The notes beneath the pieces were generated by a model. That model was not told where the DNA came from, searched no databases, and was given only the letters and a program-made list of their open reading frames with translations. Positions 19,506-21,412 of a stretch of 35,060 bases of DNA are shown in pieces (position 1 is the first letter of the stretch; each line of letters starts with the position of its first letter). The stretch comes from Phycisphaerales bacterium (GTDB lineage: Bacteria > Planctomycetota > Phycisphaerae > Phycisphaerales > UBA1924): positions 1 through 35,060 of the forward strand of contig REET01000139.1 of the NCBI GenBank assembly GCA_007694925.1. Direction: 5' to 3'. The position numbers were made by a program, and so were the translations under genes.

Positions 19506-19550
19506 CGGCGGCAAGCCTATATCGGCTCTCGACGCTACGCTCAGCCGGTT

Positions 19551-20330
19551 ATGGAAGCCCCAGCCAGCATCCTCGCCGTTGCGATCGGCAATTCTCGCAC
19601 GCGTCTGGGCCTGTTCGACCCCGAGGGGCTGCACCGGCCCGAGTCGGTGGAGAATTCGGCTCCGTCGGAAATCGCCTCGGCCGTCCGGTCGAGGCTCGAT
19701 GAGCAAGGCGGGGCGATGGTTGTGGTCGCGACGGTGAATCCCGCGCTGGCCGAGGGGTTGGAGCGGGACCTCGGCGAGGTGGGCGGGGGCGTGTACCGCA
19801 TCGGGCGGGATGTCCCGATTCCGCTGCTGCACGATGTCCAGAGCCCCGAGCGGGTCGGGCAAGATCGCCTGCTCAACGCCCTGGGCGCATACTCCAAGTC
19901 CAAGCAGGCCTGCCTGGTGATCGATGCGGGGACGGCGGTGACCGCCGACTTTGTCGATGGCGAGGGGATTTTTCAGGGCGGGGCGATTCTGCCCGGCCTC
20001 TCGATGATGCTGCGTTCGCTGCACGAAGGCACCGCGGCGTTGCCCGAGGTCGCCTTCAGCCCCGTCGGGGCCGACCGCCCCTTCGGCAAGGTGACCGAGG
20101 AGGCGATGCGGCTGGGCGTCTTCGCCGCCGTGCGGGGTGCGGTGCGGGAGCTTCTGGATCGCTACGCCGAGGCGTACGGGGGGTACCCGCGCGTGATCGC
20201 GACGGGTGGCGACGCGCCGGTGCTCTTTGAAGCCGGCGACTCGGTGGTCGAGCACATCGTGCCGGACTTGCAACTGATCGGGATCCACGAGGCCTGCCGG
20301 CGCAACGCCGAGGGCGACGACGGGCCATGA
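19551..20330 (+). CDS. coaX: Type III pantothenate kinase
   Basis: ILAVAIGNSRTRLGLFD, LLNALGAYSKSKQACLVIDAGTAVTADFVDGEGIFQGGAILPGLSMMLRSLHEGTAALP, VIATGGDAPVLFE. Confidence 0.92.
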   Translation: MEAPASILAVAIGNSRTRLGLFDPEGLHRPESVENSAPSEIASAVRSRLDEQGGAMVVVATVNPALAEGLERDLGEVGGGVYRIGRDVPIPLLHDVQSPERVGQDRLLNALGAYSKSKQACLVIDAGTAVTADFVDGEGIFQGGAILPGLSMMLRSLHEGTAALPEVAFSPVGADRPFGKVTEEAMRLGVFAAVRGAVRELLDRYAEAYGGYPRVIATGGDAPVLFEAGDSVVEHIVPDLQLIGIHEACRRNAEGDDGP

Positions 20331-21412
20331 CCGGATCGGGTCGTGGCGGGTGGCGCTTCGGTGTCGCGACGGACCGGTCGCGTCCGGGCGCGATCGGGGT
20401 GGTCGATCTTCTCGGCGAAACTTCAAGGCTCCAAGAGATCGGTCTGCCGCGGGTCGGGCCCGGGTCGATGGTGCTGGCGGACCTTTGGGGCGTGGACCGG
20501 GGGCTGGTGGTCTGCTGGTCGGAGGGGTTGGCGCAGGTGATGCCGCACGGCGGGCCGGCGGTGATGAAGGCTGTCGTTTATGAGCTGCAAGCCCGGGGCG
20601 CGGTCCGGGCCGGGGCTGACGACGAGGCCCTGGCGATCCTGTATCCGGAGGCCAGTGACCTGATCGAGGCGCGGATGCTCGCGGCGTTGGCCGAGGCCCA
20701 GAGCCCGCTGGCGATCGATCTTTTGCTCAGGCAGCCGGAGCTCTGGCGGGCGGGGGGCCAGAGCGATCCGGAACGGGACCGGGTGCTGTCGAGGCTGATC
20801 GAGCCGCCGTTGGTTGCCGCGGTCGGCCCGGCGAACATCGGCAAATCGACCTTGCTGAACACGCTGGCCGGCCGGTCTGTGGCGGCGGTCGCCGACGAGC
20901 CGGGGACGACCCGCGACCATGTCGGGCTGCTGCTGGAGGTCGGGGGCTTGGCGGTGAGGTATGTCGATACGCCGGGGATCCGCGAGGCGGAGGGGGTCGA
21001 GGCTGAGGCGGCGTCGATCGCGGCGGAGGTGGTCGCACAGGCGGACCTGGTGCTCGAATGCTCTGGGGAATGCGGCACTGGCGGATCGGCCGCCAGTGGT
21101 TCGCCACGGGAGTCATCGTTCCACCGACCTCGGCTCGGCGAGGTCGGTGCGTTGGACCCACAACATCGCGGCGGGGACGCAGCGGCACCGACCTCTCAAA
21201 GCAGAGGTCGGTGGCACGGGGGATCGGTGCTCCGTGTCGGGCTGCGGCGGGATCTGGGGCCGCCGGGGGGGGCGGTGGATGTCGAGGTCAGCGCTCAGAC
21301 GGGGGCGGGCATCGAGGAGCTTGCGGGGTTGATCCGCGAGCGGCTGGTCCCGGCCGGGATGCTTGAATCGGGCACGCCGTGGCGGTTTTGGTCGGGCGGG
21401 GGGGCTGGCTGA
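20327..21412 (+). CDS. Divergent MnmE/TrmE-like GTPase, apparently with repeat-derived sequence in the G4 region
   Basis: ATGA overlap with coaX. MnmE-like N-terminus (PGAIGVVDLLG, HGGPAVMKAVV), G1 VGPANIGKSTLLNTLAG, G2-like PGTTRDHV, G3 VDTPGIREAEG, then VSAQTGAGIEELAGLI (G5-like). No clear N/TKxD and no C-terminal C-I-G-K. Confidence 0.75.
   Translation: MTGSGRGGWRFGVATDRSRPGAIGVVDLLGETSRLQEIGLPRVGPGSMVLADLWGVDRGLVVCWSEGLAQVMPHGGPAVMKAVVYELQARGAVRAGADDEALAILYPEASDLIEARMLAALAEAQSPLAIDLLLRQPELWRAGGQSDPERDRVLSRLIEPPLVAAVGPANIGKSTLLNTLAGRSVAAVADEPGTTRDHVGLLLEVGGLAVRYVDTPGIREAEGVEAEAASIAAEVVAQADLVLECSGECGTGGSAASGSPRESSFHRPRLGEVGALDPQHRGGDAAAPTSQSRGRWHGGSVLRVGLRRDLGPPGGAVDVEVSAQTGAGIEELAGLIRERLVPAGMLESGTPWRFWSGGGAG
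21076..21213 (+). repeat. Cluster of three perfect-armed palindromes (REP-like) inside the GTPase ORF
   Basis: 21076-21098 CACTGGCGG-atcgg-CCGCCAGTG; 21122-21149 CACCGACCTCG-gctcgg-CGAGGTCGGTG; 21186-21213 CACCGACCTCT-caaagc-AGAGGTCGGTG. The last two share the CACCGACCTC/GAGGTCGGTG arms. Confidence 0.8.

Follow-up and report, generated by a model that had tools for sequence, protein, structure and literature searches.

A MnmE-like GTPase gene in the genome of a Phycisphaerales bacterium very probably carries an in-frame REP/REPIN-like insertion that is read as a disordered loop on an otherwise intact GTPase, a REP-B unit having arrived first and a REP-A doublet later. The gene lies in a window of 35,060 nucleotides, the whole stretch of DNA that was analysed (Table 1). 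In the proposed history, REP-B would have entered a variable loop between two core strands, 5′ of the G4 strand, before the split from the closest congener, G001. A REP-A doublet, consisting of two inverted REPs around a 36-nt spacer, would have been gained afterwards in this species. Since the repeat arms are stop-free and the net difference in length from G001 (90 nt) is divisible by three, the element would be translated into a loop of some 45 disordered residues while leaving the GTPase otherwise intact.

Table 1. Coordinates in the window of the GTPase gene, its motifs and the repeat units within it
Feature	Position	Strand	Basis or remark
MnmE-like GTPase ORF (361 aa)	20327..21412	+	open through all three hairpins
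G1/P-loop GPANIGKST	20825..20851	+	sequence, alignment
G3 DTPG	20966..20977	+	sequence, alignment
REP-B unit, first hairpin, GGCACTGGCGG-ATCGG-CCGCCAGTG	21074..21098	+	decayed version common to congener G001; arms 21076-21084/21090-21098, 9 bp, perfect
Translated insert, residues 251-295, predicted disordered (pLDDT < 50)	21077..21211	+	AlphaFold2
REP-A left unit of doublet, 5′ tag CGTTC (consensus CGTGC)	21122..21149	.	pattern search; arms 21122-21132/21139-21149, 11 bp, perfect
Doublet spacer, 36 nt, related to other 36-nt doublet spacers of the genus	21150..21185	.	comparison
REP-A right unit of doublet; inverted tag GCACG at 21214-21218	21186..21213	.	pattern search; arms 21186-21196/21203-21213, 11 bp, perfect
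G4-position motif LRRDLG, family form of N/TKxD, intact; Asp309 invariant	21242..21259	+	alignment
G5-like SAQTG	21290..21304	+	sequence, alignment

The host GTPase and its G4 motif

The G domain alone is recognised by Pfam and NCBIfam in the 361-aa ORF. The NCBIfam MnmE alignment spans this domain with a score far under the MnmE cut-off, and the top Foldseek matches of the GTPase model are MnmE structures (9hiq, 1xzq, 3geh). The protein thus resembles the tRNA-modification GTPase MnmE/TrmE in its G-domain alignment and best structural match, but its G4 is degenerate, its ORF has no match to Pfam TrmE_N, and it lacks the C-terminal helical domain with CxGK, ending in WRFWSGGGAG. The canonical MnmE of this genome (G000) is encoded separately (G000:C294) and has the C-terminus CVGK. 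A protein search of relatives found orthologues of the GTPase to be widespread at both family and order level. Among public records, the closest are MAGs that carry the label Phycisphaerales; one of these stems from isolate CSSed16, presumably of soda-lake sediment origin. The upstream neighbour (19509-20330, + strand) is presumably a type III pantothenate kinase (CoaX)-like gene, judging from its sequence.

The three perfect-armed hairpins described in the initial annotation are present (21076-21098, 21122-21149, 21186-21213), and the frame runs across them without interruption. The same annotation placed the insert on the G4 position and, as one of two readings, considered the gene a decaying paralogue with guanine specificity abolished. 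Alignment with orthologues and with canonical MnmE sets G4 3′ of the insert instead. The canonical N/TKxD is absent from the GTPase at this position; the form found across the family is LRxDLG with an invariant Asp, and two sampled members have TKCD or NKAD. Because LRxDLG is family-wide, the non-canonical G4 is an old trait that owes nothing to the insertion, and its intact presence downstream speaks against a loss of guanine specificity.

It is accordingly quite improbable that the gene is a decaying paralogue, or pseudogene, in which the insertion did away with guanine specificity. The absence of canonical N/TKxD, the non-native codon usage of the insert, and the loss in both this species and G001 of the Asp that follows the preceding strand (LLCGD in relatives) would suit such decay. 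However, LRxDLG is retained, the ORF has neither stops nor frameshifts, its tail past the insert is 90% identical to that of the congener, and gene order around it matches that of G001. Outside the insert, dN/dS against G001 is 0.13 (11 nonsynonymous and 30 synonymous differences), contrary to the suggested decay; the value fits a gene still under purifying selection, and is one by which any relaxation begun with the REP-A insertion could not be dated.

An AlphaFold2 model built from 22 aligned sequences has a mean pLDDT of 80.5 and a confident core. The pLDDT falls below 50 at residues 251-295, while the flanking strands (241-246 and 300-305) are intact, which is why the insert is regarded as a predicted disordered loop on a folded core. 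The insertion would amount to about 40 extra, probably floppy residues in a surface loop of the GTPase. We infer that the GTPase is made and working, and that the loop is near-neutral.

The insertion site in relatives

In the alignment, more distant orthologues join the strand ADLVLLCGD to the pre-G4 strand by a linker of roughly 10-15 aa. Measured from LEC to VLRVGL, this linker is 55 aa in this species versus 25 aa in G001. The excess at the site is exactly 90 nt compared with G001 and about 120 nt compared with distant orthologues, short of the 140-160 nt that had been anticipated. The reading frame is kept because the net change relative to G001 is 90 nt. A protein insertion conserved among orthologues without the palindromes, which the initial annotation had named as evidence against an invading repeat, was not found.

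The G001 locus lies on one contig, with 95-97% DNA identity to either side of the site. It has no REP-A doublet there; a decayed REP-B (GTGGCACTGGCTGCTTGGCCGC) is followed by GGGGTGTGGGG-type GC-rich repeats, in frame. In the second congener, G002, contigs break within the GTPase gene, and the right-hand contig starts at the insert with the same GC repeat (GGGGTGTGGGG) as in G001. The polarity of the insertion is read from two congeners, of which G002 is broken at the site, and all three genomes are incomplete MAGs. No target-site duplication was identified at the insertion.

The site may alternatively be a hotspot that a composite of REP-B and REP-A entered before the split, G001 (perhaps also G002) having then lost the REP-A part and acquired GC-rich repeats in its place. 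We regard this order of events as a possible but unlikely one. Loci C37 and C230 of G000 repeat the B-A-A′ arrangement, B and A being 21-22 nt apart, and a decayed REP-B is retained in G001, as composite entry would predict. Such a history nevertheless calls for an additional deletion, plus a gain, in G001, while the GGGGTGTGGGG repeat at the right edge is common to G001 and G002 and perfect doublet arms are in keeping with a recent arrival. These points favour stepwise entry, with the doublet added after REP-B.

GC-rich low-complexity repeats (CACCCCACGCC / GGGGTGTGGGG) adjoin REP inserts inside two genes, RodA of G000 (L189, C294) and the GTPase of G001 (L023), where they seem to expand or contract in frame.

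A highly improbable explanation is an assembly artefact, in which a REP copy from elsewhere was bridged over a repeat. The MAG consists of 320 contigs, several REPs lie close to contig ends, and G002 is broken in the GTPase gene. Both flanks nonetheless match one contiguous congener locus, and the ORF is in frame. The doublet also matches no other sampled copy above about 85% across its length, and its spacer differs from theirs.

Shuffles of the window give an expectation of 0.00 for the REP-A pattern, and the single-stranded DNA fold of the hairpin stretch has z = -6.6 against shuffles; in it, the two REP-A units pair to form a single long hairpin. A search for an Rfam identity returned only sub-threshold microRNA-hairpin look-alikes, dismissed as chance matches to long stems. 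The strong fold would suit hairpins that act on RNA or DNA, through attenuation, mRNA stability, or gyrase or IHF binding, with their coding location either incidental or selected for regulation. Most copies of the repeats are also separated from genes by distances of tens to a few hundred bases, like REPs with proposed RNA roles. Such a regulatory function is improbable at this locus, however, as the doublet is not conserved in G001 and unrelated repeats occupy the site; nor did the analysis turn up direct evidence of regulation.

The repeat families, their possible mover and other host genes

Exact copies of REP-A (CACCGACCTC-loop-GAGGTCGGTG) number 29 in this MAG, where a reversed-pattern control gives 0; G001 has 41 copies, G002 has 22, and another 58 genomes from the family and order have 0-3. 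For REP-B (GTGGCACTGGCGG-CTTG-CCCGCCAGTG), the exact pattern matches about 45 times in this MAG and is common in both congeners too; these counts refer to exact patterns with perfect arms, so that decayed copies are missed. The palindrome family thus recurs elsewhere in the genome. Together with the missing doublet in G001 and the shorter linkers of orthologues, this bears out the earlier proposal of a gene invaded by a repeat module that is now translated as a linker.

REP-A copies often form inverted doublets with outer tags CGTGC...GCACG, about 30 in number, the commonest spacer being 36 nt; spacers of this length are related in sequence. With such tags, the doublets fall outside the GTAG and CGTC superfamilies. 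They do have the features of REPs and REPINs: a short palindrome in many copies, mostly extragenic, forming inverted doublets with a preferred spacing. The spacer is a multiple of three in 24 of the approximately 30 doublets (33, 36, 42, 51, 54, 63 or 96 nt; G000, G001 and G002), nearly all of them intergenic, though shared descent means that these spacers are not independent. REP-A arms contain no stops in any frame.

Y1/HUH transposases, or RAYTs, are the presumed movers of REP doublets (PMC3116915). By analogy, the repeats may have spread as single-stranded hairpins via such an enzyme, since lost or not assembled. No Y1/RAYT gene (PF01797) was found in this MAG (89.5% complete) or in G002, an absence that is provisional in incomplete MAGs. 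The look-up for a RAYT proposed in the initial annotation thus came back empty for this genome, while the sole PF01797 gene of the genus, in G001, has a different, GTAG-tagged repeat (REP-C) on both sides rather than REP-A or REP-B. No cognate transposase for REP-A and REP-B was found in their own or relatives' genomes. The mover may have been lost, may be unassembled, or may be the REP-C enzyme acting in trans. The name 'REPIN-like' is used here because a RAYT flanked by the same REP was not found.

The G001 locus (L273, G001:C83, 2156-3322) encodes a Y1/IS200-like transposase in a 224-codon open frame amid GTAG-tagged REP-C (GTAGCCACGGGTGGAGCG...GCGCAACCCGTGG). The 18-base head of REP-C, allowing up to 1 mismatch, occurs in approximately 17-28 copies per genome. 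The transposase and REP-C look like a REPtron.

The fetched loci contain 158 distinct REP-A/REP-B clusters, 22 of them with short flanks, which were scanned frame by frame for coding potential. The scan flags as intragenic the GTPase, RodA and a GH20-like gene, plus two weak isolated matches in other genera. The latter (L055 and L056) were set aside, with coding scores that are low or a frame that ends soon past the repeat, as was L156, whose call came from an over-extended start. Neither gene calls nor the scan of the 158 clusters gave any convincing sign of an intragenic position for the remainder.

In each of the three congeners, RodA (PF01098) contains a REP-A doublet that is not present in relatives. 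The insert occupies a loop close to the N-terminus that in relatives is a short variable linker, and its reading, HRPL..EVGA..GRWH, uses the same frame as in the GTPase. The GH20-like hydrolase (PF00728, PF02838) has one REP-B near its N-terminus, read as CGTGGSPASGS in the frame used in the GTPase, and a second near its C-terminus, read as NTGGQAASAT; related REP-B readings occur in 3/3 congeners. The N-terminal loop of the GH20-like protein in G001 (L202, G001:C81:88311-90155) contains an additional translated repeat, HGRDARAT, beside REP-B. The alignments of the GTPase, RodA and the GH20-like protein each reveal an in-frame insertion in a conserved gene that is absent in relatives, as in Rickettsia palindromic elements (RPEs).

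The congeners therefore display stages of the process, with a recent insertion in the GTPase and older, genus-wide ones in RodA and the GH20-like gene. RodA belongs to a core cell-shape protein family and keeps its insert in three species, so that tolerance or use of the loop is directly testable. One might go further and suppose that in this genus the REP-A doublet is suited to intragenic life, whether by adaptation or by filtering, because spacers are mostly multiples of three, arms are stop-free, and independent intragenic copies share a frame. We give this idea little credence; if true, the REP-A doublet would be a recurrent donor of disordered protein linkers.

Relation to known intragenic repeats

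Intragenic REPs of the GTAG/CGTC families have been described in Opitutus terrae (Verrucomicrobia), Rickettsia conorii, Thauera and others. REPs are mostly intergenic with a minority in ORFs, and over half of the intragenic ones are dimers or groups, adding 20-30 aa, or 43-82 aa in the case of clusters; some of the genes concerned have two inserts (PMC3733652). The Phycisphaerales repeats are alike in being mostly intergenic with an intragenic minority, in forming dimers, and in having placed two inserts in one gene. They differ in their tags (CGTGC for REP-A, GTGG for REP-B) and in their hosts, and the in-frame change is here directly visible by comparison of congeners.

RPEs, the classic example, are palindromic selfish DNA of about 150 bp, translated in frame in unrelated proteins, with nearly half of the copies in ORFs (Ogata et al., 2000, 2002, as reviewed in PMC10969869). 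The mode is the same here, as palindromes enter unrelated genes in frame and become part of the encoded proteins. In contrast to RPEs, REP-A and REP-B copies are nearly all intergenic, and few genes are hit.

REPINs, which are REP doublets forming hairpins (PMC3116915), share with REP-A the inverted pair around a short spacer and a genome-wide, mostly extragenic distribution. Unlike in REPINs, no RAYT was found beside REP-A or REP-B, and the GTPase copy is intragenic.

The GTPase insertion works in the way of known intragenic REPs and RPEs; it differs in the tags, the host lineage and the polarity read at the level of congeners. Phycisphaerales, and REPs outside the GTAG/CGTC families, thereby join the few lineages with palindromic mobile DNA in proteins.
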